In this document: positions 12,493 through 61,695 of the stretch, piece by piece | How the letters are laid out: each line of letters starts with the position of its first letter | Numbering within the stretch: the first letter of the stretch is position 1 | From: Bedellia somnulentella | Lineage: Eukaryota; Arthropoda; Insecta; Lepidoptera; Bedelliidae | NCBI GenBank assembly: GCA_963576735.1 | Contig: OY755187.1 | Location: 8,618,001 to 8,682,000 of the forward strand | DNA: 64,000 nt | Reading direction: 5' to 3' | Notes under the pieces: model-generated | Told to the model about the DNA's origin: nothing | Seen by the model: only the letters and a program-made list of their open reading frames with translations | The model's database searches: none | Made by a program: the position numbers and the translations under genes

Positions 12493-12733
12493 TGTTTAGT
12501 ATTCACTAAATTATTGTCTGTGGTTTTCATGTATAGCTGTCTCGCTCTATTGCTTTCTCTCTCTTTCACACATCGTCTGTGCCAACGTAACATTGTGCTC
12601 CACATAATTTAATTAATTAAAAATAGAAAGACTGATCTAAAGTTCTCCTAACTGCATTTTATGTACAAGTGTAAAGTGAATAACGTGTGCCAATAAACAT
12701 TCAAACCATAAGAAGCTGTTTCAATCTTATACA
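12493..12733 (+). repeat. 5' LTR of BEL/Pao element
   Basis: 241 bp, TG...CA, with AATAAA near its 3' end. It is followed by a leader beginning TGAATTGGTCCATTCGAG, the probable tRNA primer-binding region. Confidence 0.92.
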
Positions 12734-13112
12734 TGAATTGGTCCATTCGAGCAGCGAGCAAGGACAAGGAGGAAGCCATCTTGAACAGAATTTACAGAAT
12801 TCAGATAAGCAAAATCTCAATTTTACATTGGCAACTTCCGGGAACCCCAGCGCCATCTGTTAGGAAACTGAGAAAAAACAGCTCTGTTTTACCCTAAGTG
12901 ACATACACTATTGAGCCAACGTTCATAGACAACGGGAGCCATCTATCGGAATACCGAAGAAACTATACTATACTTTATCGACACATCTACTAAAAAGGAA
13001 TACCTTTGACTACATCGCTTTATCGAGCGGCCGGAAGTGATCAAAAATTCTCTCTCTCCGCCATACTTGTCCGACGGAACATCTTAAAATTTTAGCTACA
13101 CAATAAAATTAA

Positions 13113-18451: not shown

Positions 18452-18983
18452 TTTTAATATGTTAGTACTTAAGCTTATATGAGTAATATGTTAGTAGCTA
18501 CATAAGTTAATTTGATATGATAAATAAATTCATGTTTAGTTGTATGTTTAGAAATAAGATTTTGTAGCTAGTACTTAATGGTAATAATTACAAACTTTCT
18601 CATTTGCATGTTGTTTAGTACACAACCTATTTAGCACAATGTTTAGAATGCTATCATAAAGCCATATTTTATTAAATAATAATTCATGGTCTAAGATACT
18701 CTATTCTACTCTACTCTATTCTCTTTTTGTTATAAAGTAACTACAACCTATAATAGATAACATATTCAAATATTAAAGTAATACCTAAAAACTTTACCAT
18801 TGTTCAAATGTTATAAAGCTTGATACTAACAACCGTTGTACCTACCTACTTATTATAGCTAGAAAATTAAACGACATTTTAATTGTAGTAGTTTATTAAA
18901 TTATCAACCACAACTAGTTTACATAGGTTTCTTTTACATTGTAATTAACTCTAACTTTATGTTACTAAATTGAGGGGCGAGAA
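18452..18983 (+). other. 3' noncoding region of BEL/Pao with polypurine tract
   Basis: AT-rich and without an ORF. It ends in TTGAGGGGCGAGAA directly before the LTR. There is no env-like gene. Confidence 0.7.
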
Positions 18984-19224
18984 TGTTTAGTATTCACTAA
19001 ATTATTGTCTGTGGTTTTCATGTATAGCTGTCTCGCTCTATTGCTTTCTCTCTCTCTCACACATCGTCTGTAACAACGTAACATTGTGCTCCACATAATT
19101 TAATTAATTAAAAATAGAAAGACTGATCTAAAGTTCTCCTAACTGCATTTTATGTACAAGTGTAAAGTGAATAACGTGTGCCAATAAACATTCAAACCAT
19201 AAGAAGCTGTTTCAATCTTATACA
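18984..19224 (+). repeat. 3' LTR of BEL/Pao element
   Basis: 241 bp, differing from the 5' LTR at a few bases (for example CTGTAACAACG versus CTGTGCCAACG). It is followed by the ATTCT duplication. Confidence 0.92.
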
Positions 19225-26520: not shown

Positions 26521-26720
26521 NNNNNNNNNNNNNNNNNNNNNNNNNNNNNNNNNNNNNNNNNNNNNNNNNNNNNNNNNNNNNNNNNNNNNNNNNNNNNNNN
26601 NNNNNNNNNNNNNNNNNNNNNNNNNNNNNNNNNNNNNNNNNNNNNNNNNNNNNNNNNNNNNNNNNNNNNNNNNNNNNNNNNNNNNNNNNNNNNNNNNNNN
26701 NNNNNNNNNNNNNNNNNNNN
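26521..26720. other. Assembly gap (200 N)
   Basis: Undetermined bases. Reading frames reported across it are meaningless. It probably hides most of the 5' LTR of the gypsy-type element that follows. Confidence 1.
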
Positions 26721-27373: not shown

Positions 27374-28293
27374 ATGTCTGTAAGCAAAATGGATAATCAA
27401 AAATTGGTCGAAACGGCAAACACTGAACCATTTCCCATTGGAGTGTTATGCAATTTTATTAACCCGTATAGAGGAGACAAACACTCACCGCGTTTCTGAC
27501 AAACTGTCAAAACGCATTGGATCTAGCATCAGCGACTCAAAAGACCCTTCTATTTAAATATATAATAGCCCGTTTAGAAGGAAAAGCGCAAGTAGCATGT
27601 TCGAATAAAATATTTGATAATTTCGAATCTCTTAAGACCTTTCTCAAACAAAATTTCGGTGAGAGAAAACATTACAATCATTTACTATTCGACCTACAAA
27701 CATGTAGACAACAGCCAAATGAGACTGTTTCTGAATTCGGTTTGAGAATAGAGAGTTGCCTTACGGATTTACAGTCTGAAGTACATAATTCGGACTCGTT
27801 AAAAAAGGATTTACCCGGCCGCATAGCGATGACGGAAGACTTAGCGCTCTATACTTTTTGTTTAGGGTTACATCCAAGACTTGGTAATAACGTCCGATGT
27901 AGAGACCCAAAAACTTTAAATTATGCTATTAATGTAGCCATTGAGGAAGAAAAAATTCAAAATCTTTTATATAAAACTGCTTCCACCAAAGTAAACTGCA
28001 AAACCTGTGGAAAACCTGGGCATTCCGAAACCGAATGTTTTAGCAGGCAAAAACGTGTATTACAACCACGTATATTTACTGAGTCTCAGCCATCCGCTTC
28101 GCAACAAACGAAATCACACGTTTTCTGCAGGTATTGCCGTAAAAGGAAATATAATAATGAAAAATATAGAGGCAACAATAATCAGGCGGCACATCATATT
28201 TTATACGCGCCGCAGTCCGGCGCGCCATCGCCAACTCCCGCTGATGAAACCACATTTGAGAACTCATTCCTCACTCAACCTCATGTAAACTGA
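27374..28293 (+). pseudogene. Gypsy-type Gag, frameshifted near its start
   Basis: ATG at 27374 opens a frame that reads PFPIGVLCNFINPYRGDKHS and stops. The main frame (LTAFLTNCQNALDLA onward) is offset, so one frameshift lies near 27487. The body is a capsid-like helical region (KTFLKQNFGE, FDLQTCRQQPNETVSEF, FCLGLHPRLGNNVRC) followed by a CCHC zinc knuckle (CKTCGKPGHSETEC) and a second Cys pair (CRYCRKRK). This is the standard Ty3/gypsy Gag layout. It overlaps the protease frame by about 37 bases. Confidence 0.8.
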
Positions 28294-29279
28294 ATAATCG
28301 GGCTACAGTTCCGTGCCGACGTAGCCCTCGTTTCAAAGGCATAACTACTAAGGCCAAGCGTGTCAATAACATTCAATCTTCAAACCATTTTGGGTGTAAC
28401 AAAAACATTAATTCAAATCCTCAATACATTCCTTCGGGAACCGCTGTTTCGTTTAGTGATAATTCAAAACCTCAACACATTCCTTCGGGAACCTCTGTTT
28501 CGTTGAGTGATAATCCAAAACCTCAACACATTCCTTCGGGAACCTCTGTTTCGTTGAGTGATAATCCAAAACCTCAACACATTCCTTCGGGAACTGCTGT
28601 TTTGTTGAGTGATAATTCAAAACCTCAACACATTCCTTCGGGAACCTCTGTTTCGTTGAGTTCTACTTCTAAGCCTCCATATAATAAGAGCGACAAATGT
28701 CAAGTTCCTATTCCAATTTACGAGATAAGTTCATCCTATAATAAAATATCTCTACCCCATATTTACTTATATTCTGACCTTGCTAAGAAACCGCTCTGTT
28801 TTTTAGTTGATACCGGCTCTAGCGTCAGTATAATTAAATTAAAAAACTTCATAACCAAACCCCCTCTTTTAAATGATATAATAAATTTGAAAGGATTGAA
28901 CAACAACAATTCTTTTTGCAAAACAATAGGATCTTTCTTTTTCTCATTCAAATGTTCTCCTACAGATACCTCTTTAGAATCAACTATGTTTAAGTATAAG
29001 TTTCATGTCATTTCAGATGATGTTCATCTTAATTACGATGGTATATTGGGAAGCGATTTCCTAAAAAAGGTAAACGCTGACATTCAATATTCTAAAAACG
29101 CTCTTTTCATTGAAGGCAATTCTTATCCAATTATTTTTAACCAACCATCTTATATTATTCCCCCTAGGTCAGAGGCAGTTATAGAATGTTTAATATCCAA
29201 CCCTTCCTCTGAAGTCGAGAACACAACGGAGGGCTTGGTTCTGGATCACCAAATTTCACAAGTAATTATTGTTATATAA
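28257..29279 (+). pseudogene. Gypsy-type protease region with internal repeats
   Basis: Lies in the -1 frame relative to Gag and is open from 28257, overlapping the Gag end. This fits a -1 ribosomal frameshift between Gag and Pol, though I see no classic slippery heptamer. The first third is an array of 18-residue repeats (SDNPKPQHIPSGTSVSL). Then comes a retropepsin: FLVDTGSSVSII with the catalytic DTG, and YDGILGSDFL for the second conserved loop. The frame ends at 29279 after DHQISQV, at the border with unrelated repeats, so RT is lost. Confidence 0.75.
28420..28660 (+). repeat. 54 bp coding tandem repeat
   Basis: About four to five direct units of 54 bp (core CCTCAACACATTCCTTCGGG). The length is a multiple of three, so repeat gain or loss keeps the frame. 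Confidence 0.9.
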
Positions 29280-29327: not shown

Positions 29328-29540
29328 CTAATGAATTTTGGTATTTTCATGTCGTATATTATTTTCTATAGTTGTCAAAAGCTTGTCAAACGTAGTCATT
29401 TTCATGCGAAAATAATCCACAATTTTTTTCTCATGTTGTCGCATTACACTGTAAAGGGTAATGAACCCACCAAACTCATTTTTCTCTTGTATAATTGGAT
29501 GAACCCAGTAGAGTTTCTTGTTTTTTGTTTCCCTTTTCAT
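29328..29540 (-). pseudogene. PIF/Harbinger transposase N-terminal fragment, copy B
   Basis: The same 70-residue reverse-strand reading frame as at 12247-12459 (YWVHPIIQEKNEF; FDKLLTTIENN), differing in the final residue. Similarity of the two genomic copies begins at about 29334 and continues downstream through the former BEL/Pao target site. Confidence 0.75.
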
Positions 29541-30222
29541 TTTCTTCTAATAATAATATGAATTCATCATTCTTTTTTGCTTTGTAGTGTTAGGATAATA
29601 AGCTTAGTGTCAAGCCATTTTAGGTATTCATGTAATTATCATGTCAGTCAATATCAATATCGTAATCAATATCAGTCATGTAATAGTAAAGTTTGATAGT
29701 TTAACTTGATCGGAAGTCAATTTTATATTTTATGAAAAGTAAACTCGACAAATCTCTTTTTGATAACTAAGACAGACGCTAACTTAAATGGAAGTGTATT
29801 TAATTATTTTATCGGTTAACAATTTGGTTAAATCTGTACCACAGAACCATACTATGTTAAGTCCACTTTAGCCATATTGTTTTTTTTTTTTCATTTATGT
29901 ACTCAGAATCATTTATATTTTCCGGAGCCACAATGTATTAAGTCCTACGGGGCCGCCGTATTAGAAAAATACTTAAAATTATATTACTTTATGTCCATTA
30001 ACAGTCAGGGCCATAACAAGTCACGTCCAACTTAACACAATATGGCTCTGACTATTTCCCAGTATGGCAACACTAAATTGTGACATAAACTAAAGAAAGA
30101 AAAATCCGCGTAATTCCGCCCGCGCACTTTCTTTTTTTCTGCTCGCGTAGTCTCCTGTTTTTGTTTGAGTTAAGTTATTTTAATGAATAATTACGTGTTA
30201 TTTAATGATAATTCATGCTAAA

Positions 30223-32420
30223 ATGAATAAATATACTCGTGGAGAACACTTTATTGATTTAAGTATGATAGATAACTGAATTAAATCGTAGTGATAAAAT
30301 GTCAACTCAACTTTAGCACTGGAAGATTAAACACATAATTTATTCGTGTGTTACTTTTTCAGCTTGTTTTATCCAAATATTAATCTTTGAACCAAGCTTC
30401 TAATGTTTTGTCTTCAAACCAAGTCGTATCCTCTCAAACTTCGGGCATTTCTGATCTTAATACTGTGAGTGTTCAAGTTGGTAATTTTCAATGCTGTTTT
30501 TCATATATTACTGCTGTTTACTCTTGGTTTTTTCAATAAAACTATTTTATTTCATTGCAGAAAATATAGAAATCCAACAAATATGTAATGATAATTGCCA
30601 GAACCAATACTGATACTGATCAGAGTGATCAGAGATCTCAGGTAAATATTATTTTAATAAACATACCTGTAAGTTATATAGTTCAGTAGTATGTTATTTA
30701 CCTAGCTATCTAAACTTATATTGTCTATTTTATTGCATTTTAGGACAATTCTCCTACCATACAAGAAATCTTTCACTACCCTGTCGATAGTGATGATTCG
30801 ATAACTCACTATTCGGATTCAGACAATGATCCAAATTTTACTGTACCAGAGTCAAAAGAAGTGTCCAGTGAAGAAGATAACATACCCTTATCATTCATAG
30901 ATACAAATAATAACATTGAGACTACAGGACCAAAACAGACTAGAAAAAGAAGGCGAAATGTAAATGCATGGAAATGTTAACAGCGTAAAATTAAAAGGTG
31001 TTCAGGTAAAAGTTATGTGACAGCTAAGGGCAATAAAACTGTTCCTGCTGACTCTGAAGCCTCCATGCTTGGCATCATGTAGAAAGAAATGTACAGAAAA
31101 AATACCTCATGAAGTAAGACAAAGTATATTTGATATTTTTTATAGGGAGGATTTTGACCTCAACATGAAGAGGTTGTTTGTAGCAAAAAGAGTGGAAAAA
31201 GTAGAAGTTAAGAGGAGGCGTTCCCGAACTGGCACTAGGGAAAATAAAAGGAATTTCAGTCTACACTATAGCTTTATTGTTAATGAAAAGGTCACTCCAG
31301 TATGTTAAACTTATTTTTTAAGTACACTTTCTATATCACAAAGCTTTGTTGATGTTGCACTAGTGAAAACAATTGAAGGAGGTAGTGTGACAAGTGACCA
31401 GAGAGGTAAACATCCCCCAGCTAATAAACTTGATGATAGTGTTAGAAATTCGGTGAGAAGACACATAGAGACATTTCCAGCTATAGAAAGCCATTACAGT
31501 AGGGAACGAACTAAGCGTAAATACCTTGGTAATGATTTATGTATCAAAAAAATGTATTCATTATATGCAGAGAAATGTAAAGAACTAAACTTACCTCACC
31601 AAAACATTGCAAAAGAATGGCTCTATTATGATATATTTAACAATGAATATAATCTTTCTTTTAAACAACCTGCAAATGACACATGTGATACTTGTGATGA
31701 ATTTAAAATTGCCATTGAACAAGTTACTATACCAAGTGAAAAACAGCTCATTCAAATAGATTATGATAGACATTTGTTAGAGAGTGAGAGGAGATATAGA
31801 ATGAAATCATCTGATAAACTACTATCTACAGCTGATAAAAAAAAAGAAAGTTATAATGATAGATTTGCAAAAGTGTTTAGCTACACCATATCTTACTAAC
31901 TCTCAGATGTTCTACTTGAGAAAGCTCTGGACACTTAACAATATTTGATGCTTCTAAGAATGAAATATTTTGTGCAATGTGGGATGAGACAGTTAGTGGT
32001 AGAGGTGGTTGTGAAATAGCTTCTTGTCTTTTCAAATGGGCGAAAGAAAGCATTGATAACGATATAGAAGAAATTACACTATGGTCAGACAATTGTGGGG
32101 GCCAAAACAGAAATTATGTTATGATTTCATTTTATTTTTGGCTGCTAACCAAATTTGCTAATCTTAAAGTAATTAATCACAAATTTTTGTTAAGAGGGCA
32201 TACTCATATGGAAGTTGATGTACAACATTCTGTCATTGAAAGAGCTAAAAGGAAAATAAACAACACAAACACTAAAATAATGATCCCTTGGGACTGGCAA
32301 CAGTTTGTAAGAAGTTGTTCGTCACCTCAAAATAGAATTGAAGTTTTGAACATGGAGTTCCAAGACTTTTTGAATTTCAAATGTCTTTTTACTGGGAACA
32401 CATCACAGTCAGACAATTAA
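30223..32420 (+). pseudogene. Unnamed transposase-like gene, copy B (full length)
   Basis: The uninterrupted counterpart of the gene at 19838. Exons carry an acidic N-terminal region (DSDDSITHYSDSDNDPNF), a basic KRKIKRC block, CRKKCTEKIPHEVRQ, RRHIETFPAIESHY, CDTCDEFKIA and then a C-terminal RNase H-like part: MWDETVSGRGGCEIAS, LWSDNCGGQNRNYVM and HTHMEVDVQHSVIERAK. The WDE, SDN and later acidic/His residues are candidate metal ligands of a DDE nuclease (inference). It contains stops after NAWKC, frameshifts near 31045 and 31890-31950, and a damaged first donor (TTAAGT for GTAAGT). I cannot assign a named superfamily. Confidence 0.6.
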
Positions 32421-32714: not shown

Positions 32715-33655
32715 TTGATGCTAAAGGTTTTCCTATTAAAACCAATAAATTGTTATACATTTTCAGCTGTATATGCTGATGGCAGCAAAGTCAGCTCAAC
32801 ATTGAAAAATACTGCTGAAGCAATATCCTTTTTTGACGACCTTTTTGACAGTGTCAATGGGTCCAAGACCATTGGCTCAACCAAACAAAAAAGTAAATTT
32901 TTAAGAACAGCGGCAACTCCAAACTCGCAACACGAGGAATTTTAGAAAAATTCAATCAAAACTTTAAAAAAAATAAGAGTAAACAAGAGTAGACAATGTA
33001 CGGTGCCTTTGGTTAATTGGGAGACAACTTTAAAAAGTTATATAAGAGTGTGGCAGTTTCTGCAGTCCAAAAATGTAAATATTATGAGGCCAAAATATTT
33101 CAACTCTGACCCAATAGAAAAAATTAGCCGTTATAACAAACCCAGACTGCCACACTTATGTAAATACTTTTAAATCTCTTTTGATTACAGGTATAATCAA
33201 ATACCATTCTGAGAATTTTAGTTGTGAGAATGTGTCTTCGAATCCAATATTAAAGGTGTCGCAAATGTTTGAAGGAACAGATACTGTTAATTCTGATAAC
33301 ATTAGTACAGCCTGTGCTGATAAAACACAACTTACTTCGCCTGAGGAAAAAAAGCTTTTAGAAAGTATTCTTGAAACTGCTGTGCGAGAAAAAATTTGCG
33401 TACATTCCAATGCATATACAGTTGGGTGGGTAATAAGGAAAATAAGAAAAAGTAGAGGAAAATGCATCGAGTGCGATAAAATTTTAACCATTGAAATTAA
33501 TAATGACACCCACATAAGGATAAAAGAAAGAAAATATTAAAAAAAAAAAATACCTACCCTTCTGTGAATGCGGTAAGAATATTTGATAATGTGATTAAAG
33601 AATCAAATTATTATTTAGAAAATTTGGCTCATCATTCGAATATAAAAAAAATTAT
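32715..33655 (+). pseudogene. P-type transposase C-terminal remnant B1
   Basis: Blocks parallel to the remnant at 2198-3174: VYADGSKVSSTLKNTAE, FFDDLFDSVNGS, KFLRTAATPNSQHEEF, then QSKNVNIMRPKYFNSDPIE, AYTVGWVIRKIRK, CIECDKIL and, in another frame, TYPSVNAVRIFDNVIKES. Several frameshifts and stops. It differs clearly in sequence from the second P-type piece that starts at 33661, so two P-type lineages are joined here. Confidence 0.7.
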
Positions 33656-39997: not shown

Positions 39998-40450
39998 AAT
40001 CTGTCGAAACGGCCGGCTATTAGAGAAATTTTCAGATGATCTCGATTTCGAGATAATTGCCCCAATGACACCCACTCACTACCCAAACAATGTACTCCAC
40101 ACCCCCGGCATCATTGATTTGGCGCTTCTGCGTAACGTAACCTTACGTTTGCGTTCCGTAGAAGTTATACACGAACTTGAGTCAGATCACCGCCCTGTAC
40201 TACTATCACTAGGCCTACCCGAACACACTCCGCCCGCCACTCGTCCCAGAATTAACTGGGCGAAATTGACGGACGGCCTAAAAACTTACACTTCACCCCA
40301 CCTCGACACAATTCCGGATGACATCTCGTCACCGGATGACGCCCGCCGAGCTGTCTGTGCCTTAACAAAGCACCTCTCGACGGTCGTACAAGACGCCACG
40401 TCGCAAGTCGTTGTCGATGACTACCATCGCCAACGACTCCCCGACGACAT

Positions 40451-40564
40451 TGTAGTGTGGTACGCACACATATTCCCTCTATATATTGTATGTTAGTTGT
40501 AAGTCTTTAGTAGTAATAAACCTATATCCAACGAGCAAACACGTGTCTTATTTCGTACATTGCA
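40451..40564 (+). repeat. 5' LTR of cargo element
   Basis: 114 bp, TGTAGTGTGG...TACATTGCA. It is followed immediately by TGGCGACCCTGCCAGGAT as the primer-binding site. Confidence 0.92.
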
Positions 40565-40680
40565 TGGCGACCCTGCCAGGATAATTTTTTACTTTCTTAC
40601 TCATATCGATAAAACTTTGTGTTAAAACATCAAGATCATCATATATATAAACCCATCATTTGTGCTATTTAGATACAACA

Positions 40681-41937
40681 ATGGTGAAAACGGTAAAGAA
40701 GGTTATACGTCGAGAAGTATCACGTATACACAATACTACGGAAAAAAAAAACAACAAAACCTATAATCTATGTGGAGTTTTAGAAAAACAAGTAGAAACC
40801 GCAAAAGAATTCACGGCGCTGAGTAGAGAGGGAAACATCCCTCTTACTTCCACCCACCGGTCTCACTTACCTGCCACTCAATTTTCTTGGATAACATCAG
40901 AAGATATAGCTAACCCTGAAACAAACTTAAGGTATGCAGTTGCGTTGCTGAAATTGCTAGGTGAAGAAGAGACTGACTATGATGATGACTTAAAATTGAC
41001 TTGTTACTTAAATCTTTTACATATTGTAGCTCCAACCATAAAAAAATCCACTAGTCATTTGCTAAAAGTGTATGGGTATGAAAACGGAGAAGTAACTATG
41101 ACTGAATATCTTTCTAGGATAGACACATCTTTAGATGTTCTCTTGGATGAAGAGATGGATTCGGTTGGTACAAATGAAGTATATGCATTGACTGGAATCC
41201 TCTTTTGCTTGATCGGCAAGCAACTTTCAACTCTTAACTATAAGAAATGGACAGAAAACCGGGCTCGATCGTTTAGCCAGTCGCTTGGTACAGTGTTAGA
41301 AGAAGATGTCAAAAGTGCACTTATTCCTAGCTCGTCAAGTTGTGCAGCTATCTATAGTATGTTTCAGCGATGTGGGAAGTGCGCAGAGAAATCTTTCTCA
41401 CAAGCAGCCATGGCTAACGCTTGTATGGCTCTGCTTCACGGTTCTGAGATGGGAAATTACAACTTAACCGCGAAATATATAATGTTAGAAAACCCCATCC
41501 TACTGTGCTGGAACGAGCTGGCAAAATACAATCCTTATTTAATAGCGGCGGCTGAAAAATACGCATCATTGGGAGAGGACGCGCCGTATTGTAAGCTGCT
41601 GTACCCACCAAGCAGCCTCATGGAGTTTAACCGTAGGTCTCTTAGGATCTACGCTACAGTAGCACGGGAGATAGCAGTCTTAGAGGGTGAGAGCTCATAA
41701 AAGAATTACGAAGGAACTAGCACAGACCCCTCGTTGAAGAACTTAGCATCTAAAGCTCTGGCTTTAGTTCAAACAGCTGGAGGAATAAATACACGCGTAA
41801 CGAATGAAATTAGGCAAATGACTTTGGCTGATACGGTAGACAATGAGGACATACGGACGGACTTAGGTTTTGGGGCTCACATCCAGACCAAGACTGAAGA
41901 TATAGAAATTGAAGAAGAGGAAAACATCGGCAAATAA
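40681..41937 (+). pseudogene. Cargo ORF of LTR element; possible RNA-virus nucleoprotein-like
   Basis: ATG 40681 (in the shared leader, context ACAACAATGG) opens a frame that stops at 41698-41700. The same frame continues without further stops to 41937, so the gene carries one in-frame nonsense codon about 80 codons from its end. The product is soluble and apparently all-helical, with a basic N-terminus and a strongly acidic C-terminus (EIEEEEN). Blocks: YALTGILFCLIGKQLS, AIYSMFQRCGKCAEKSF, KYIMLENPILLCWNELAKY, AAAEKYASLGEDAPYCKLLY. It shows no zinc knuckle or Gag signature. Overall style recalls nucleoproteins of negative-strand RNA viruses, which would make it a captured viral gene. That is a weak impression; a divergent Gag or a host gene remain possible. 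Confidence 0.4.
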
Positions 41938-41940
41938 TAG

Positions 41941-42338
41941 GTTGTGACCGTTAAAATAAATGCCTCATTTAAGATTTTTTACTATAAATAAATATTCTTT
42001 GTGACAGCTATTTTTAAATATATAATGTGAATATAAGAAAGAATATAATACTGTTAAAAGTAAATAATAAAGTGAAAAAAAAAGTTAATCAATATTGTGA
42101 AAGTGAAAGATATGAAAATTATATATTACTGTACAGTACTGTGACAAGAGTCTTAAAGACATCCTAAATATGATAATTTTACTTGATAGCGATTACGCAG
42201 CAAATCGTTTGGCCAACGATTTGTTTCAATATTTCCCGGATTTGACAATTAGATTTTAATTATATTATAGTTTTAAGTTTAATACATAGAAAAATATAAA
42301 ATAATAACTTTTATATTTTTGTTTTCAAAGGGGGGAGG
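41941..42338 (+). other. 3' noncoding part and polypurine tract of cargo element
   Basis: Has two AATAAA-like motifs at about 41955-41995, just after the ORF, as if the cargo brought its own 3' end. From 42024 it becomes the family's 3' module, nearly identical to 510-824, ending in the purine tract. Confidence 0.7.
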
Positions 42339-42452
42339 TGTAGTGTGGTACGCACACATATTCCCTCTATATATTGTATGTTAGTTGTAAGTCTTTAGTA
42401 GTATTAAACCTATATCCAACGAGCAAACACGTGTCTTATTTCGTACATTGCA
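42339..42452 (+). repeat. 3' LTR of cargo element
   Basis: 114 bp, with one base different from the 5' LTR. It is followed by the ACAT duplication and the resumed Jockey frame (KELVTAKNRATRAY). Confidence 0.92.
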
Positions 42453-44784
42453 ACATCAAGGAACTTGTTACAGCGAAAAATCGTGCTACTCGCGCTTACG
42501 ATTCTTTTCCCTCGCCCGAAAACCGCTCCCGGCTGTGGGCTGCGAAGCGTATCCTTCGGGAGCGCCTAGTCGAACACAGAGGGGAGCGGTGGGATAAGTT
42601 CCTTGGTGATATCCGTCCGTCCCATAACGCCTACTGGGACGTGGCGAGGGCGCTCAAGTCGGACGGCACCGATCTTGGTCTTCCTCCCCTCACACAACCG
42701 AACGGCCTACCACCGGCCTTCGAAAACGATGAGAAAGCGGAATGCCTGGCTGAGAGTCTGGAGAAGCAATGTTCTCCGAGCTCTCAGCCATGCGACCCAC
42801 TTCACATCGAGGCCGTTGACAAGTTAGTCAACGACCGCGCCTCACTCCCTCTCCTCGATGATCTCGAACCGATCACCGAGGACGAGGTGAAAGACATCAT
42901 TAAACACCTCAGACCCAGAAAGGCCCCGGGGCCCGACGGGCTGACTAACAGGGTCCTTAAGATCCTACCACAACACATCATCACACTACTCACAATCATA
43001 CTTAACACATCACTCATACACGGCATCTTTCCAGACTCATGGAAGGATGCCGATGTGATAGGTATATTCAAAGTCGGAAAGCTCCGCACCGATCCCACGA
43101 GCTATAGGCCTATAAGCCTATTAAGCTCGTTAGGTAAGATCTATGAGCGACTAATCCTCGCTAGTATCAGACACTACTTGCACACTAGCGGCATTCAGAT
43201 AAACGAACAATTCGGGTTCAGGGCACAACACTCTTGCGTCCAACAAGCGCATCGCTTTACCGAGCATGTGCTTGATGGATTCAATGACACATACGAGAAA
43301 CAGACGGGCGCCGTCTTCTTTGACGTGGCTAAGGCATTTGACAAAGTCTGGCATAACGGTCTGCTATACAAGCTATACCAGATCGGTATGCCAGACAAAC
43401 TCGTGGCTATAGTCCGCGACTACTTGTCGGATCGCCGATTCCGCTTCAGAGTGGAGGACGCCCACTCACAACACCACCCCATACACGCGGGAGTCCCACA
43501 GGGCTCTACGCTCTCACCCACACTCTTCAATATATACACTAACGACATCCCGCGTACACCGCTGGTGGAGTTAGCACTCTTTGCAGACGACACACTACTC
43601 TACACGAGTCACCCCAACCACAACTTTATACGGCTCCGCCTTCAGCGAGCCGTAACACAACTCGGAGAGTGGTTCAGGAAGTGGCGGATCGAGGTTAATC
43701 CCTCCAAAAGCGCAGCCATGCTCTTTCGGAAGGGAGGCCCCTCACACGACCCGCCTCAGCCTGTTCAACTCTTCGACACACCTATTCCGTGGGTGAAAAA
43801 GACTAAATACCTCGGTATTGTCTTTGATCGCCGGCTCACATGGTCACACCACATCAAATACATACGCAACAAAGCCTCATTCGTCCTGAATAGGCTATCA
43901 CCGATGCTTTGTGCTCGCAGTAAGTTACCACTGCGTCACAAAGTTACACTATACAAAACATGTATACGTTCGGTCCTCTCGTACGGTAGTGTTGCGTTCG
44001 CACACGCCAGAGAGGGCTTGATACACCGCCTCCAGGTGATACAAAATAGGTTCATGCGCAAGGCGGTAGGGGCGCCTTGGTATGTTAGGAACTATGATCT
44101 CCACAGAGACTTAGGACTCAATACAATCAGGGATCACTTCAAACAAATCTCACGTAGATACTTTGATAGGATCCCTGATCACCCCAACTCCGAGCCTCGC
44201 TCGACTACACGATTTCCCCGGACGCCGGGATTCGACGCCCACGTAGCGTGCTCTCGGATCCCGACGACGATATCACCCGCGAGCTCGAGGCCTCAGGGGC
44301 CACCGGCGCTCGCGGTCACACCAACAACCACTATCACTCCCGACACCGACCCCGCCGGCGAGGTCGTAGAACCTAACACGAACTTTAGAGTCACACCAGA
44401 CTCAACTAGAGTCTATTTTATTTTTATACTCACCCTATTCGACTCAGCTTGTACACTCCTTTGCCTCGCCAGGGCGGCCTTCAGCCGCCCGGCACACAAA
44501 GTTATGGTGAAGCCGCACAGGCCGCAGGGCCAGCAGCACCGAACCGGTGAGGTTTTAGTCGGTAAGACTCCGACATACCCCCGTCGCTCTCTCGAGCGAC
44601 GGGGGATCCATGAGGATTTCCCCACCGGTAAACAAAAAAAAAAAAAACAACATTTTCATTCTCTTTTCTGCAACGGAAGTTAGCGGATCTCGGCGAATTA
44701 ATTACCAGACCTTTTTATACATCGCGCGTGAGTCACTTTGTTTTGGGTGTCAATATTTTAAATAGTGTTTTTACGTGAAAGTGC

Positions 44785-49485: not shown

Positions 49486-49853
49486 TGAAGGATAGCAGGC
49501 TGTTGTGCGCCTGCTGCTCGATCACAAAGTTGACCCACGTTGTAAGGGCCTTGAAGAATGTGGCGTAGAAGAAATAACACGGCAACTTGTTCTACTATGC
49601 TTTATTACTTGACAATTACAGCTGTAGCTGTAGCTGTATTACAGTAAATATACAATGAAATAAATAGCTTCTCGTCTTCTCCGTGTCTTCTGTGTGGATT
49701 TGAGTTAAAAAGAGAGTTTTACAATATGTTAGATGGGTTTTTTATACGCGACGCTGTTTGTCTCCTTTCTGATGGCGCTTGACGTGACTGACGCGACTCT
49801 GGATTGTTTATGTTTTGAGCCCGTTAAAGCACTTGGATCCAAGTGCTTTAACA
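49486..49853 (-). repeat. 3' LTR of antisense BEL element
   Basis: 368 bp. On the sense strand it begins TGTTAAAGCACTTGGATCC, part of a perfect 30 bp palindrome (49823-49852), and ends CCTTCA. Confidence 0.92.
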
Positions 49854-49880
49854 TACTGGGGGGCCATTGAAGACGAGTCT

Positions 49881-50610
49881 TCAATCTTCTTCTACAAGTA
49901 GGCACAAGCGATTTATGGCTCGCCTTACTGTCGATTGCATGGTCTTGATATCGGCCACTCTCGGGACACCATCTGCTCCTGGATATAGTTTAGTGACTCG
50001 CCCTCTTCGCCATAACAGAGGTGGAGAGTTATCTTCGCTTATTAGGACAAGATCACCCATGCGCAAGTCTCTACATCTTACTCGCCATTGAGTTTGCTGT
50101 TGTAGCTCTGATAAATATTCCCTGTGCCATCTCCTCCAAAATGTTTGCCGTAGCTGCTCCAACAGTTGAAAGCGATCCAATCTCTTCGTCGGTAAGTCTG
50201 CCAGATCCGGTGATGGAAGAGCCGTGAGTGACCTGCCGAGGAGAAAGTGTCCCGGTGTGAGAACTGCCAAATCATTTGGGGAGGAGGAAAGGGGAGCGAT
50301 GGGTCTACTGTTGAGGATAGCCTCAACCTGGGCAAAAGAGAAGATAATTCCTCGAATGTGAGGTGGGTGTTACCCATGATGCGTTTAATGTGAAACTTAG
50401 CAAGCTTAATGCCAGCTTCTGCGCTTCCGTTGAAATTAGGGGCGTAAACCGGGCAAAATCTAAAGTTAATATTTTGAACATTAGCAAACTGCACAAATAG
50501 TCTTTATTGTCGTTAAAAAATGAATTTATTTCCTTAGCTGCGGCAACGAAATTTCGCTCATTGTCACAAAATATTTCCGTGGGTTTTCCCCTGGCGAAAA
50601 TAAAAGCATA
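49881..50610 (-). pseudogene. BEL integrase remnant
   Basis: Reverse strand, in order: FARGKPTEIFCDNERNFV (second catalytic Asp context), then INFRFCPVYAPNFNGSAEAG with the third acidic residue, LAKFHIKRIMG, and, after a frameshift near 50280, LTPGHFLLGRSLTALP, FWRRWHREYLSELQQ and GDLVLISEDNSPPLLWRRGRV. The frame ends LCLLVEED about 25 bp before the LTR. The N-terminal zinc finger and first Asp are lost in the deletion that also removed RT and RNase H; a microsatellite-like (GATGAT) stretch lies at the deletion point near 50620-50650. Confidence 0.85.
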
Positions 50611-50976
50611 AAGAAATTATGATGATGACCACCGTTGATGATGATGATAATCATGGTGATTGATCATCGCACTGATTCAAATACATCTGATAAATGAATC
50701 CAAAAAAAAATATATATATATATGCTAAAGTTCAAAGTCGATGAACTTGTAAGGTCAACTACCTCGATGTCAATGACCTTTAGGTAGTCAGCTGTTTACT
50801 GTATCTAGAAGGAAAGACATAATAAAATAGCAAATAATGATTGATCCATGTGTAGGATGATGTAAAGTGTATAAGTATTGTATAAAGTAAAATATTTGTA
50901 TATAAATGTAAATTAAAAGTAAACCATAAACAATTGTTGAATGTTTGTTGTGTATGAGTTCATTCAACTTAGGCTA

Positions 50977-53190
50977 TTAATAACCAATTGGTTTCGGTAA
51001 GGTGTAAGTATCACCAAGACGGTAATCTGCTGCCTTGAGTGGGCTGAGAGGACAGAAACGTCTAGTTTTTAGTCTATGAGTTCTAGTTAACTTGGTAAAA
51101 GAACTGCTACTAACAAAATTACAAGTTTGTGAATTTTGTGGTAATGGATGGGAAATCTTGCCAGCTATAATCCAGCCTAGCTGTGAATGATGCAGCATGG
51201 GTAGGCCTGGACCTAAGGTGAGCCTTTCGGAGCCAAGAAGATCCCAGAATAGATCGCCTCCAATCATAATGTCAACCTTTAGTGGTTGATTGAATTGAGG
51301 ATCAGCTAATGTGATAGCTGAGGGAAGAGTGATATTTGAAACATCAATGGCTTCATTAGAGTGCCTTTTTGCTATGGAAGGCAACACCAAAAAGGTGTGA
51401 AGATGTAAGTATGTGCCAGTGCGGGCACGAATTAACGCTGAGCACTGATGTGGTCTCAGGTTAAGAAAGGTGTTCCCAACACCTGTAACACTGTCGTGTA
51501 TCGAGGGTGTGGAAGCTAACTTAAGGCGATTCCTTAAGTCAGCGGAAAGAAAAGAGTAGTCAGAGCCGCTATCTAGCAAGCATCTGACTGTCTCCACCTT
51601 ACCATTTTGGGGATTGATGATGTCAATCATGGCGGTGGAGCGAATGATCCCTGAAGGGGAAACTGGAGGACTGAGAGAAAGCGACTGAGGCATTGAAGGG
51701 ACAGGATGTGATGATGGAGCAACATCATTTTGAAGAAGGGGAGAGCTGTGTAGCAGAGTGTGATGGCGTCCACCACACTTACGACAGTCTCCATAGGGAC
51801 ACTTGGCAACCATATGGTCAGACCGAAGGCAATTTGTGCAAACCTTAAGCCCAGTGACCCTACTCCGTCTGTCAGCCAATGTGAGCTTTCTGAAACGTAA
51901 GCATCGGAACAGTAAATGTTTACCCTTGCAAAGGGGGCACTTGAAATTAGTATTAGTTGTAACTGTTAATGCTAGGGGGGCATTGGGTAAACGTGAGGGC
52001 AATTGAGGATTGCTAGCCTCACCGCTTACATTACCTGAAGTTGAAACAATAAATGCTTGAGGTGGATTTATTGTTTGTTTAATATGATTGTTACTATGAT
52101 AGTGTTTTAAATCATGACTATTATTATTATTATTATGACTGTTGTTTGAACCCTGTGATGTGTTAACCCTTACCTTACTTTGAGGTAATGTCTCTAAAAT
52201 GTCAGCTCTTATCTTTAAAAATTCTTTTAAGTCATTAAATGTTGGCAACTCTGAATGAAGATTGCCTTTGTATTCTTCCCATTTGATATTAGTATTTAGA
52301 TCAAACTTTGAGGAAGCTAAATAAATTAAAATAGAATCCCAGTGTTGAACTGGTTGACCTAAAGTCTGTAAAGCCCTAACATTCTTGGTGATGTGATCAC
52401 TTAAAAACCTAAGAGACTTGTCTGATTCACTCTGCATAACCTTGAGATTAAAAAGTGCACTAAGGTGATTATTAACTAATTGTTTTGTATTGTTATACCT
52501 TTCACATAATATGTTCCATGCTTCTACATAATTGAAATCAGATACCTCAAGATTTGCTATAACCCTGGCTGCTTCACCTTGTAGGTATGAGCAGAGGTAA
52601 TGAAATTTATGAATAGGTTTAATGTGATTATTATTGTGAATTAATGATTCAAATGTATCTCTGAATTCAAGCCATTTGAAGTATGAACCATCAAACTTAG
52701 GTATAGTGATTTCAGGTAGCCTAAACCCCATTGTGCCTTGACCATTACAGTGGCATGGATGGGAGGCCTTTGACCCTTCAGTGGCATCTTGGAATTGGTC
52801 TGCAGGTTTGTTGACACCGAGCAGATTTCGAGCCTTCACAATACAAGAACAGAATTCATTTGATATGAGTTCTCTTTCATCTAATTCATAATCTAAGTTA
52901 CTAAAATTAAGAGCTTCCATTTGTGATTGCAGGTGTTCAAATTGAGAGTTTAACTCCAAAAACTTATCTAGCTTTAATGATAACATTTGTTCATCCCTTG
53001 ATGACAATGGATGGGATTCACATGATTCTAGTAAATTTAATAAATATTTTTTAAAGTGGGTTATTTGCCCTTTGATTGAAGTGCGTTTGTACTTAAGCAC
53101 AGTATATTCATCGCTTGCCATTTTGGCAGGGCTTGAGCTTCGACTGGCATGAGCAGTGTTTGTTTTTACTGATAATTCACTGCCAGTCAT
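50977..53190 (-). CDS. BEL Gag-protease (737 aa)
   Basis: An intact reverse-strand frame from ATG (MTGSELSVKTN). It has a DUF1759-type Gag region (PKFDGSYFKWLEFRDTF, YLQGEAARVIANLE), zinc knuckles (CPLCKGKHLLFRCLRF, CTNCLRSDHMVAKC, CRKCGGRHHTLLH) and an aspartic protease (CLLDSGSDYSFLS, with Ser for the usual Thr of DTG; later IMIGGDLFWDLL). It stops soon after the protease at TLPKPIGY, where the internal deletion begins, so RT is absent. The intact Gag may still package the transcript, with RT and integrase supplied in trans (inference). Confidence 0.9.
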   Translation of the reverse strand: MTGSELSVKTNTAHASRSSSPAKMASDEYTVLKYKRTSIKGQITHFKKYLLNLLESCESHPLSSRDEQMLSLKLDKFLELNSQFEHLQSQMEALNFSNLDYELDERELISNEFCSCIVKARNLLGVNKPADQFQDATEGSKASHPCHCNGQGTMGFRLPEITIPKFDGSYFKWLEFRDTFESLIHNNNHIKPIHKFHYLCSYLQGEAARVIANLEVSDFNYVEAWNILCERYNNTKQLVNNHLSALFNLKVMQSESDKSLRFLSDHITKNVRALQTLGQPVQHWDSILIYLASSKFDLNTNIKWEEYKGNLHSELPTFNDLKEFLKIRADILETLPQSKVRVNTSQGSNNSHNNNNNSHDLKHYHSNNHIKQTINPPQAFIVSTSGNVSGEASNPQLPSRLPNAPLALTVTTNTNFKCPLCKGKHLLFRCLRFRKLTLADRRSRVTGLKVCTNCLRSDHMVAKCPYGDCRKCGGRHHTLLHSSPLLQNDVAPSSHPVPSMPQSLSLSPPVSPSGIIRSTAMIDIINPQNGKVETVRCLLDSGSDYSFLSADLRNRLKLASTPSIHDSVTGVGNTFLNLRPHQCSALIRARTGTYLHLHTFLVLPSIAKRHSNEAIDVSNITLPSAITLADPQFNQPLKVDIMIGGDLFWDLLGSERLTLGPGLPMLHHSQLGWIIAGKISHPLPQNSQTCNFVSSSSFTKLTRTHRLKTRRFCPLSPLKAADYRLGDTYTLPKPIGY

Positions 53191-54481
53191 ATTGAAAAGG
53201 AAATTAATAATTAATAATTGATAAGTAACTAGTTAAGTGAAAGGTTCTGTATATAGATAAATTTCTGGAGTTAATTGTTATAGTAAAGGGTGTGGCAAGA
53301 ATGTAAAATTAAAGTAAATTGTAAACCGGTTTACGCTCCTTGTGAAGGTGACGCCGCTGGAGACAACAGGCAGCAGCTGAATGATGCAGGCCTGCGTTCC
53401 TCGGTGAAGTTCACGTTCACTGAAATTGTTTGAAACAGTAGTAAGTATATATCCCTGAATCGTTTGGTAGAGCGGAAACTGGCATGAAACTAACCAATAT
53501 TAAGTTTGTATATTGAAATTAATTGAATTAAGTGAAGAGTTGATTGATATGCTGCTAGAGTTGCCGGCACATGTGAGGTATGAGTACCTTAACTGCTGCC
53601 TTTACTTAATTGAGTGAATGTATATAAGCAAAGTGAGTCAATGATTCACATGTGCACTTGATGGCTGTAGAAAATATATGGTTGATTAACCTAAGTGAAG
53701 AGCATGTGGTTTTGTAAAATTAGTTATGTTGCTCACTAGTTTTACAAAAACACTAAAATGCTAAAGTGAAGTTAAAGTATTGAAAACTAAGTAATTAATG
53801 CAAGACAAGGCTGAAATTCTGATATTGATATGATTAAGAAACTATTTAAGTTGACATGTGGTATGAAACATAACCTGGATGTCCTTAATAGAGTGCGCTG
53901 ATTCCACTTGGTGAGGCGTTGGAGCCTGTTAGATGAATTGCTGTAAGGTTAAGTTGCAATTATCTTTGTAAATGTTATGCGCTAACTCTGTAGCACATGG
54001 GAGGCCTATGTCATACACTGGATCACAGAAACCAGCGGCTGTGGCTCAGAAATAGCTGAGTGGTGATTGCCTTGTGCAATCAGTTCAACTTTAATTTCAT
54101 CATGTGGACCATGCCGTTGAGAATCTATTCTAACCTCAAAATTTTTAAGAAATAAATGGGAAGTAATGTGCTTTCTAGGTAATTAAATAGATTTATGATA
54201 AGATTGATGTAAAATACAAAGGGATTGCTGAGATATTAATGGATGTAAATTGATTATCTATTGATTATCTTGACTAATTTGCCCGTGGTGAGGGGTTTTA
54301 AGGTGAGGAAAAGAAAGGAATGATTGGCTCACGATACTCTCCTCGGTAAGATGCTGGCAGGTGGGATGGCTGCTGTGTCCAACCCTTGGACCTGGCTTCT
54401 TCACCGGCGGCTTGGCGTGGCGTGGCGTGGTCCTCCTTTTCTCTCGTTCTTCGTCGTGGTGCCTCTGCTGCGTAGGCTGAT
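53191..54481 (-). other. Long 5' leader of antisense BEL element
   Basis: About 1.3 kb between the primer-binding site and the Gag ATG. No convincing ORF. It is unusually long for a BEL leader. Confidence 0.6.
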
Positions 54482-54501
54482 GTCCCTGTTCGGGCGCCAA
54501 A

Positions 54502-54869
54502 TGAAGGATAGCAGGCTGTTGTGCGCCTGCTGCTCGATCACAAAGTTGACCCACGTTGTAAGGGCCTTGAAGAATGTGGCGTAGAAGAAATAACACGGCA
54601 ACTTGTTCTACTATGCTTTATTACTTGACAATTACAGCTGTAGCTGTAGCTGTATTACAGTAAATATACAATGAAATAAATAGCTTCTCGTCTTCTCCGT
54701 GTCTTCTGTGTGGATTTGAGTTAAAAAGAGAGTTTTACAATATGTTAGATGGGTTTTTTATACGCGACGCTGTTTGTCTCCTTTCTGATGGCGCTTGACG
54801 TGACTGACGCGACTCTGGATTGTTTATGTTTTGAGCCCGTTAAAGCACTTGGATCCAAGTGCTTTAACA
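54502..54869 (-). repeat. 5' LTR of antisense BEL element
   Basis: 368 bp and apparently identical to the other LTR, including the 30 bp palindrome (54839-54868). Confidence 0.92.
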
Positions 54870-56865
54870 GAATGGATGTGCCATCAAATAAAACAGGCGG
54901 TAGTGATTTATAGTCAATCCTGGAAACAATTCGTGAGCTACCAACTATAATTATTTGCGTTTTATTCGGATTAACTTTCAATCCATATGCTTCACTCCAT
55001 TTCAAAATTTGCATTAAATCATTATTAATTAAGCTTATGGACATATTTATTTGGTCAAAATTAGCCTGTGTGTAAATCTGAAGATCATCTGCATAAAGGT
55101 GGTAGGAAGAAGTAAGTTTATGAGAAATGGAGTTAATAAATATAGCGAATAAGAGAGGAGACAACACACCACCTTGTGGAACACCGGCATTTAACTCAAT
55201 CCACGGAGACATGGCATCTTCGAGGTGAATGCGCTGCCGACGCCCCAGTAGGTAACTACGAAACCAGTCAACTACCGTTGGAGATATGTTAAGAGAACGA
55301 AGTAAAGCAAGTAATATTTCGAAGTCAACCGTATTAAAGGCGCTACTAAAATCAAGCAGTGCTAAAACAGTCAGCAGTCCCTTATCCATTCCCAAACGCA
55401 TGTCATCAGTTATTTTGATCAAAGCCGTTACAGTACTATGGGAAGGGCGGAAACCAGATTGGAAGGGGTTAAGCAGATCATTCCTAGTGAGAAAATCACT
55501 TAACTGTTTATGTACCAGTCGTTCAAGTACTTTAGAGAGGAATGGCAGAATAGATATAGGACGATATTCAGAGAAGGACTTAGGATTAGCTTTTTTGGGA
55601 ATAGGAGTGACCTGGGCTTCTTTCCATACCATAGGGAAGGATTCTAAGGATATGGAATTATTAAGGATTTCAGTAATAACAGGAAGAATAAGGTCTAGGA
55701 TAGGCAATATCATTTTTCGACTAATACAATCACCACCTACTGCGTTTGACGTAATGGACATAATATTCTTCTTAACATCACAATCGGAGAATTGACAAAA
55801 ATTAAAGGGAGGATAATCCGGAGCTGGTAGTGTAGAAAGAAAATGTAATGTTTCAGCTTTTTTAACACCATCAAAAGTAGATGTCGTGGAGAAATGGTTG
55901 TTAAGCGAAGTGATGTCTAGATCTTTTGGGATAGAATCGTGACGAGATTTTCCAACTCCTAAGGATCTAAGAAACTTCCAGACTTTAGCTGGATCGCCAT
56001 TTTCAACGGATTCGTGGATGTGGTTTCGCTGTCCATCCCTACACACCTTATTGCAGTGATTCCGAATCGACACATACTTTTCCTTGTTTAGATCTGATGG
56101 TCGCGACTTAAACTTTGACTTGGCTCGTGCTTTTTTCATCAATAGATCCCTAATTTCGTCTGTGAGCCATGGTGCCGGAAAATGCTTCATTTTAACTGAT
56201 TTAACGGGAGCGTGAATATCGAACAGTGCCGTAAGTTTTGTATTAAAAGTGTTGACTTGTTCATCGATAGTAGCCGCTGTGGTACATGTCATCCAGTCAA
56301 TATTAGAAGCATCATGTCTCAGCTTATCCAGATCTATACTACCAAAACTGCGCTGCAGAAGAATTTTAGACTTATTTTTAGGGGGCCGGACTTTATAGGA
56401 CAAGAATATTAGATCGTGATGAGAAAAAGCATCTGCAGCAGTTTGGCCATGCAGAGCCACGTGGTTAGGGGAGGAGACCGCTATAAGGTCGAGAAGAGAT
56501 GGCGTGCAATTTGGTAAGTTATGAGTGGCATTAAGGGGTAATATATGAAAATTACTGCCATGGAATATCGAAGTTAGGGATTTAGAACGCGAATCACCTT
56601 TTAAGAGGCAGGTATTGAAGTCACCCATAATAATTGAGTGATCGTAAGAGGGGGTGAGATCTTCTAAGATCTTCTCAAAAGAAGGAAAAAAATTTAATTG
56701 AAGTGACGGACTATAGTAGACACCCAATAAAACCTTATTGTGTCCTAAGACTAATTCTAAGAAAAGGTGTTCACCGGCATTTGATGGCGGGGGTTGGGTT
56801 GAGGTGCTGATAACTGAATATGGAAGTCTGTTGTTAAATGAAATATTTCTTTTTAGGGGTCTCAT
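54870..56865 (-). pseudogene. CR1-like endonuclease-RT, N-terminal part
   Basis: The reverse strand starts MRPLKRNISFNNRLPY at the very 5' end of the truncated LINE. It gives the endonuclease (LGVYYSPSLQLNFFPS, IMGDFNTCLL, LLDLIAVSS, SHHDLIFLSY) and then RT (VTPIPKKANPKSFSEYRPIS, LLDFSSAFNTVDF, GVPQGGVLSPLLF, YADDLQIYTQ with the catalytic Asp pair, LKVNPNKTQIIIVG). Reading into the BEL LTR ends the frame; the true continuation is at 48849-49485. No other lesion is visible. Confidence 0.9.
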
Positions 56866-60146: not shown

Positions 60147-61695
60147 ATGCACATGGTGCCAGACAACGAAAACTGTGAAATAGAAGTACTTCGTGAATGT
60201 GTGCTCAAATTGAGTAAAAGATTCTCAGAATATTGGAAAAAAGCATCTAGAAATTTTAATAGGCTCAAGAACAATCATATGGAGTGGTTACAGTGTAAAG
60301 AAGTTGTGGATTTAATCAAGAGTGCAACTAGCAGAAGTTCGTCACTATGTAAAAATGTACAACTTCAGTGTTCATCCGGTAGCAGTTCAGCAGGTAGGAA
60401 AAAGGTCTTCTCGGAATGCAGTAAGCGTTCCCAGCGTAGAAGGCAAGCTGACCTTTCTAAAGTTGATAAAACTGCAGTAAATACGTTGATGGATCTATCA
60501 AACCATTCAGAAACTACTGAAAAGTAAGAATTTAGTACTGACGAAGTGTTATCGTTGTACACAGAAGCCAAATTGACAAAGCACCAGTACTTGCTCATTA
60601 TGAACTTTATAAACTCAAGAAACTCACACATTTTTCCCTCATATAAGAAGCTACTTAGCCAAAAAGCGGTGCTATCCGGAAAGCATCACAGTTAGAGAAA
60701 CAGGCGCGGAAGTGGAGCTGCAATGTTCGCTGGACCACACTGCCAAACGTATTGTAGATGTACAAAATGAAGTGCTTTCAAGCATGGATTATGAATCTCT
60801 TGGTGATTTATTTTTATTCGGAAAATGGGGTTTTGATGGCAGTACTGGACACGGAGAAAATAAACAGAGTTTCGTGGAAAATCCCGGACTGGAAGATGAA
60901 AGTATGTTTGTGACATCCTACGTCCCGCTACGTAAGGTAGCAGTTGTGCAGACCACCGGAGAAGAGACTCTTATTTGGAAGAATCCACGACCTTCATCTA
61001 CGAGATCCTGTAGACCTATTAGGTTTCAATTTGCAAAAGAAACAAAAGAAGTATCCCTTCACGAAAAACAGTACTTTGAGGAAAAATCAATAACTTATTA
61101 CCCACTGCATACAATGATTTGCAAATAAACCGTAAACTGCAGTTGACCATGGTGGATGGCAAAGTGTGCAGTACTTTATCGGACATATCCTGCTCAAAAT
61201 GTTTTTTGTGTGGGGCATCGCCTAAAGAGATGAACAAGATCGATGAGTGCCTTGAAAAAGAAATCGATAGCGTAAATCTAGAGTTTGTACTGTCTCCGCT
61301 GCAGGATCAGATTCTTTGAATTTTTATTGCATGTATCGTATCGTCTTGATTTTAAAACTTGGCGAGCTCGTTCAACAGAAGCCATAGACTTACTAGCTAC
61401 CAGAAAGAAGCGCATTTAACAAGAATTTAGACAGAAGTTGGGTTTAATTGTTGTCAAACCATGTTGTGGAGGAAGTGGCACCTCTAATGATGGCAATACA
61501 GCGCGCAATTTTTTTGCTAACTCTGTAGTTTCAGCTGAAATCACAGGTTTAGAAAAGAGTTTCATAGACCAATGTGGTGCCATCCTTAGTGCGCTTTCTT
61601 CTGGCTACAAAATATGTCCCAGTAAATTTAAATTATTTGGTGTAGCAACGGCTCGGTTGCTTGTTCAGGAGTATCCATGGTTTAATATGCCATAA
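60147..61695 (+). pseudogene. Degenerate Transib (RAG1-like) transposase
   Basis: Pieces in three frames follow the Transib order: an N-terminal block (RFSEYWKKASRNFNRLKNNH), TEAKLTKHQYLLIMNFINSR, FGKWGFDGSTGHGENKQSF (first Asp), IWKNPRPSSTRSCRPIRFQF, LTMVDGKVCSTLSD (second Asp), CFLCGASPKEM and GSGTSNDGNTARNFFAN. It ends PWFNMP followed by a stop, before the region of the third acidic residue. Sequence identity to the intact copy at 35743 is clearly partial, so this is a different, older lineage. No CACAGTG termini could be paired. Confidence 0.85.

Follow-up and report, generated by a model that had tools for sequence, protein, structure and literature searches.

How does a gene that resembles those of negative-strand RNA viruses come to lie between the ends of a retrotransposon? 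The question is raised by a 2.0-kb sequence at positions 40451-42452 of a 64-kb stretch of the Bedellia somnulentella genome (contig OY755187.1), the whole of which is called the window below. This sequence is bounded by long terminal repeats (LTRs) and carries a single main open reading frame (ORF). The first-pass annotation took it, together with a second copy at the left edge of the window, for a modular vector in which different coding sequences are placed behind one leader and start codon. We propose, with a probability of about three in four, that the sequence at 40451-42452 belongs to the non-autonomous, Ty3/gypsy-like LTR elements and that its coding region is a nucleoprotein (N) gene derived from a negative-strand RNA virus of lispivirus-like kind. 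The Ty3/gypsy-like label is suggested by the 4-bp target-site duplication and by end and primer motifs that we take to be typical of the group. The entry of genes from RNA viruses that have no reverse transcriptase into animal germ lines is often inferred from nearby LTR elements (as in PMC5497376). Here, a viral gene that lies between primer site and purine tract, with the target site duplicated, points to the retrotransposon cycle itself.

Anatomy of the element

The anatomy that had been described for the 2.0-kb sequence was found as placed:

40447-40450: target-site duplication ACAT, left copy
40451-40564, + strand: 5' LTR, 114 bp, TG...CA ends, TATATA at LTR position 30 and AATAAA at 65
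40565-40582, + strand: primer-binding-site-like sequence TGGCGACCCTGCCAGGAT, named from its letters only
40565-40690, + strand: leader, 126 bp, ending in ATGGTGAAAA
40681-41700, + strand: putative N cargo, lispivirus-like, 339 codons from the element ATG, in-frame stop at 41698-41700
41701-41937, + strand: C-terminal remainder of the putative N gene past the stop, 78 codons plus stop
41938-42023, + strand: AT-rich 86 bp between N and 3' module, candidate viral 3' untranslated region or element sequence
42024-42338, + strand: 3' module, 315 bp
42327-42338, + strand: purine tract AAAGGGGGGAGG, the end of the 3' module, directly before the 3' LTR
42339-42452, + strand: 3' LTR, 114 bp
42453-42456: target-site duplication ACAT, right copy

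Direct terminal repeats with TG...CA ends, a short target-site duplication (ACAT on both flanks) and a polypurine tract adjoining the 3' LTR (42327-42338) are among the features by which LTR retrotransposons are recognized, and all three are present. The two LTRs differ at 1 of their 114 positions. The primer-site-like TGGCGACCCTGCCAGG lies directly 3' of the 5' LTR; it is presumably of the tRNA-Arg type, and no tRNA was found within the 64-kb window. The first 28 bases of the LTR, sought with at most 3 mismatches, occur three times in the window and in none of 100 shuffles. RNA folding is unremarkable in both leader (z -0.23) and 3' module (z -1.82).

The element sits in a long interspersed nuclear element (LINE), whose right-hand ORF matches RVT_1 in Pfam (E 9e-40). 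When 330 bases of left flank and 600 bases of right flank are joined with one ACAT, the LINE frame is open for 309 codons, which is the entire joined length, whereas the other two frames are open for 56 and 65 codons across the site. Because the joined flanks restore an open LINE frame, 40451-42452 is a true insertion. The absence of retroviral enzymes was also borne out. Besides N and its remainder, the element has no complete internal ORF of more than 65 codons, and the Pfam scan, which covered those two ORFs, gave no match to gag, pol or any other family. The lack of gag, protease, reverse transcriptase and integrase between the LTRs places it among non-autonomous elements.

Identity of the coding region

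The N ORF (40681-41697) begins at the ATG that closes the leader and stays in frame with this element ATG for 339 codons; beyond the stop at 41698 the same frame is open for 78 more codons, to 41935. Open runs reached at most 208 codons when 40691-41937 was shuffled 1000 times by mononucleotide. A first protein search yielded two relatives (E<=1). A second search, made with their alignment (P0001 and P0002 in the query) and scoring the 7998 candidates that shared most words, yielded ten at E<=10. All ten are without a name, and the weakest, P0010, has an E of 1e-26. These relatives also account for the sequence past the stop: P0001 and P0002 align with it over their C-terminal parts, and when the ten were compared to the window by tblastn, every match extended beyond the stop. 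P0003, a full-length relative, matches 40711-41895 with 42% identity. The window protein keeps 44 of the 49 columns that are conserved among the relatives.

The viral assignment comes from structure. The model of P0003, which is homologous to the window ORF, shows the N fold of the Mononegavirales. It matches mononegavirus N proteins in PDB, and arlivirus or lispivirus N proteins are its best viral matches (5 of the 10 best names contain arli or lispi, the top two included). Kinship with lispiviruses is a structural ranking for P0003 rather than a position in a tree, and the VIA comparison took in those chains that Foldseek had ranked. A host gene or a gag was considered as the cargo and rejected, the relative's fold and best viral matches being those of nucleoproteins. 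Two sets of weak matches were taken as chance: the N profile gave 22 rows, each naming ribosomal protein L3 or uL3, with a best E of 0.064, and two families each matched 1 of the 11 members of the N alignment (best E 0.015). No L gene, which would encode the viral RNA-dependent RNA polymerase, was recognized in the window. Scans of the viral contig collection with proteins and with the element's DNA, and one scan of genome contigs with that DNA, gave no relative; both collections may exclude the window's own genome. If translated at all, N would yield a truncated protein of 339 residues that includes the element's first codons.

The related block at the left edge

The claim of an exchangeable cargo had been drawn from a comparison with the left edge of the window, where the following features lie:

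196-447, + strand: basic ORF of 83 codons, upstream of the 3' module
510-824, + strand: copy of the 3' module
825-938, + strand: single LTR
939-1064, + strand: copy of the leader, ATG at 1055
1065-1412, + strand: coding sequence past the leader, in a frame other than that of the ATG

Much of that comparison stands. The two leaders are identical (126/126), 510-938 differs from the 3' module plus LTR of the element at 5 positions, two of which are one-base indels, and BLAST finds no match between the left interior and the N cargo. The ends are thus nearly as alike as the element's own LTRs (1/114), which suggests that the two loci separated recently. From the left block it is also clear that this pair of ends is found at another place next to sequence other than N.

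The left locus is not, however, an LTR-to-LTR copy, as had been supposed. It forms one contiguous block of 555 bp (510-1064) in the order 3' module, LTR, leader, and is thus circularly permuted with respect to the 2.0-kb element. It has no second LTR, and at E<=1e-3 the window holds no further match to the element at 40451, which is its only complete LTR-to-LTR element of this kind. The order found is that of a circle with one LTR or of a tandem's middle part, and differs from that of a full element. Possibly, then, the block stems from such a circle of a related element, opened in its interior so that the sequence from 1065 onward and that before 510 represent the interior's ends, or else from a truncated tandem. 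We can entertain this only tentatively: it has no positive sign in its favor, the left end lies off the window, and other transposon sequence begins at about 2.1 kb, to the right of the block.

What follows the left leader is a conserved protein. Of 4 candidates, two are related to the translation of 1065-1412 at E<=1, namely P0011 and P0012, both without a name (E about 1e-28 and 4e-28; identity 59% and 75%). Both continue for 6 residues past its stop, and the left sequence is broken near its end. A weak Pfam row for 1065-1409 (UPF0240, E 0.14) was not used. Nor does this sequence lie behind the common start codon, as had been proposed: the frame of the ATG at 1055 runs for 16 codons before a stop, and conservation lies in a different frame. 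The coincidence of the junctions, also invoked in favor of a modular vector, is forced by the two-way comparison; it is no independent evidence because the shared part of two sequences always ends at one common point. Homology to the respective relatives starts at unlike distances past the leader, 21 nt in the element and about 57 nt at the left, where that of the longer relative, P0011, begins at 1122.

These observations bear on the idea of a family that exchanges its cargo, in which the left block would derive from one additional element or two, sharing the leader and 3' module but holding other captured genes, in a tandem arrangement about a single LTR. The identical leader, the 5 differences in 3' module and LTR, the neighbors unrelated to N and the broken conserved protein would all fit. 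Against this stand the single LTR, the lack of a second 3' module or LTR downstream before 40451, the reading frame and the forced equality of the junctions, and we consider such a family unlikely. One could also suspect an assembly chimera, with the permuted block absent from the genome, since the block begins 510 bases from the end of the window, amid repeats. The sole run of the letter N in the window (26521-26720) is distant from both loci, however, and an artifact of this kind seems improbable. The block may reflect a second capture, a tandem, or a permuted circle whose parent element had a different interior.

Two neighboring ORFs were also considered. The one at 196-447, separated from the left 3' module by an unassigned 62 bp (448-509), encodes a basic head and a hydrophobic middle containing glycine, and has no relative in the viral contig collection, Pfam or NCBIfam. 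A 43% relative of that at 2099-2443 lies at 32763-33008, and we take the two related fragments to come from a transposase of the P-element or THAP9 type; 2099-2443 was therefore dropped as part of the left cargo. A weak Pfam row for 2099-2443 (E 0.076) was not used.

Proposed origin of the N-bearing element

At 40451, the two ends of an LTR element, which is integrated in a LINE and flanked by 4-bp duplications, enclose N, and we infer that N and these ends were integrated as one unit. One could envision the following course of events. During reverse transcription of the RNA of a parent element, the enzyme would leave its template close to the 3' module, continue on sense viral N RNA, and then switch back onto the element leader, just past its start codon. 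The product would retain LTRs, primer site and purine tract, with N inside. Because these sequences are kept, the enzymes of an autonomous partner could integrate the N-bearing product. Such a copy-choice origin appears the likeliest, and would agree with the proposal made for eBxnv-1 (PMC5177903) and with the mosquito data (PMC5497376).

Several points weigh against the proposed reading. The window protein has no significant sequence match in Pfam, NCBIfam or PDB, and its own model has no structural match with E <0.001. The predicted local distance difference test (pLDDT) values are modest, 54.6 for this model and 62.4 for that of P0003, and the structural matches of P0003 mostly have TM-scores of about 0.35-0.65 and root-mean-square deviations of about 6-20. 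N is interrupted by one in-frame stop and lacks 11 residues at a single site compared with the relatives, which indicates that it has decayed. N is not followed by a poly(A) of the kind that would mark a viral mRNA end. A single N-bearing element was observed, in a 64-kb window, and neither a parent element nor a viral source sequence was recovered, so that the switch points are placed by deduction. Lastly, N may have been inserted into an element already standing: viral cDNA would have entered an existing non-autonomous element after the integration of the latter. Nested insertion does occur in the window (the BEL/Pao element at 12493-19224), and nothing dates N relative to the LTRs. We nevertheless regard this order of events as improbable, since homology to N starts within 21 nt of the leader and shares the frame of its ATG, and on the 3' side of N no more than 86 bp of other sequence is left.

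Of the modular vector, then, a foreign coding interior in frame with the leader ATG stands, with template switching as its likeliest source; an exchange of cargo within a family is supported only in part. The first-pass annotation had named, as the case that would overturn its own view, two cargos that are different deletion derivatives of one conserved interior. N is not known as the interior of any LTR element, so that the N cargo is unlikely to be such a derivative; the left sequence may be one. It is tempting to speculate that a tiny LTR vector, made of LTR, start-codon leader and 3' module, repeatedly captured unrelated RNAs, including viral ones, at nearly the same switch points, and spread them as in-frame genes or as templates for Piwi-interacting RNAs. 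Such a mobile archive of viral genes must be considered a long shot. Capture by the retrotransposon cycle would in any event make the viral gene transposable, and if more copies or cargos exist in the host, switch points and capture rate become measurable.

Other transposons in the window

Eukaryotic transposons abound in the window, among them DDE_Tnp_1_7 (which we take to be piggyBac-type), Pao elements, LINEs, and TNP-like and RAG1-like ORFs. This content, together with the lispivirus kinship, points to an arthropod host. The BEL/Pao element at 12493-19224 has 241-bp repeats that are 98.8% identical, with Peptidase_A17, DUF1759, an H2C2 integrase zinc-binding domain and DUF5641, and is nested in a dispersed repeat of which an uninterrupted copy lies at 29335-32073. 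At 49486-54875, 374-bp direct repeats (99.5% identical) enclose a minus-strand DUF1759 ORF of Pao type; LINE-like frames, judged by eye, flank them on both sides. A 695-codon open frame at 35993-38080 matches RAG1 in Pfam (E 2.3e-6) and is presumably Transib-like; the frame at 60613-61128 resembles it by eye. Downstream of a Retrotrans_gag ORF (27472-28293), another ORF has in-frame repeats at 28409-28677, spaced by 51 bp and encoding repeated HIPSGTSVSLSDNPKPQ-like peptides.

Comparison with known systems

Terminal-repeat retrotransposons in miniature (TRIM) and other non-autonomous LTR elements likewise have two LTRs and no enzymes; the present element differs from TRIM in having a viral ORF as its interior and in its length of 2.0 kb. 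In a plant case attributed to Tanne and Sela (2005), an RNA-virus sequence is said to have been left with only the repeats of a retroelement; the host differs from the insect considered here, and the comparison is by description only. Recombination between a retrotransposon and an RNA virus has reportedly also been seen by Geuking (2009), between a mouse intracisternal A particle (IAP) element and the exogenous lymphocytic choriomeningitis virus (LCMV), although that case is experimental and mammalian.

Further systems come from a nematode and from insects. In eBxnv-1 of Bursaphelenchus xylophilus, a nodavirus RNA-dependent RNA polymerase lies inside a Bel/Pao LTR element, and the authors propose copy-choice in reverse transcription (PMC5177903). 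As at 40451, the LTRs, along with primer site and purine tract, enclose a gene of a non-retroviral RNA virus. There, a degenerate pol is kept and the virus is positive-strand; here, gag and pol were not found and a negative-strand N is in frame with the element ATG. In Aedes aegypti, the viral integration AeBunya1 is likewise nested in an LTR element, one of the Pao-Bel group, and viral integrations are enriched beside Ty3/gypsy elements (PMC5497376). Its transposable element is called full-length, whereas the present one is reduced to its ends. A lispivirus is named among exogenous viruses of aphids (PMC11978097). Anakin offers a further parallel, that of a gene from a negative-strand RNA virus captured inside LTR boundaries in insects: these BEL-Pao elements carry a chuvirus glycoprotein (PMC7642597). 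Their complete copies keep all BEL-Pao domains, to which the glycoprotein is added, whereas in the element described here N is the sole gene.
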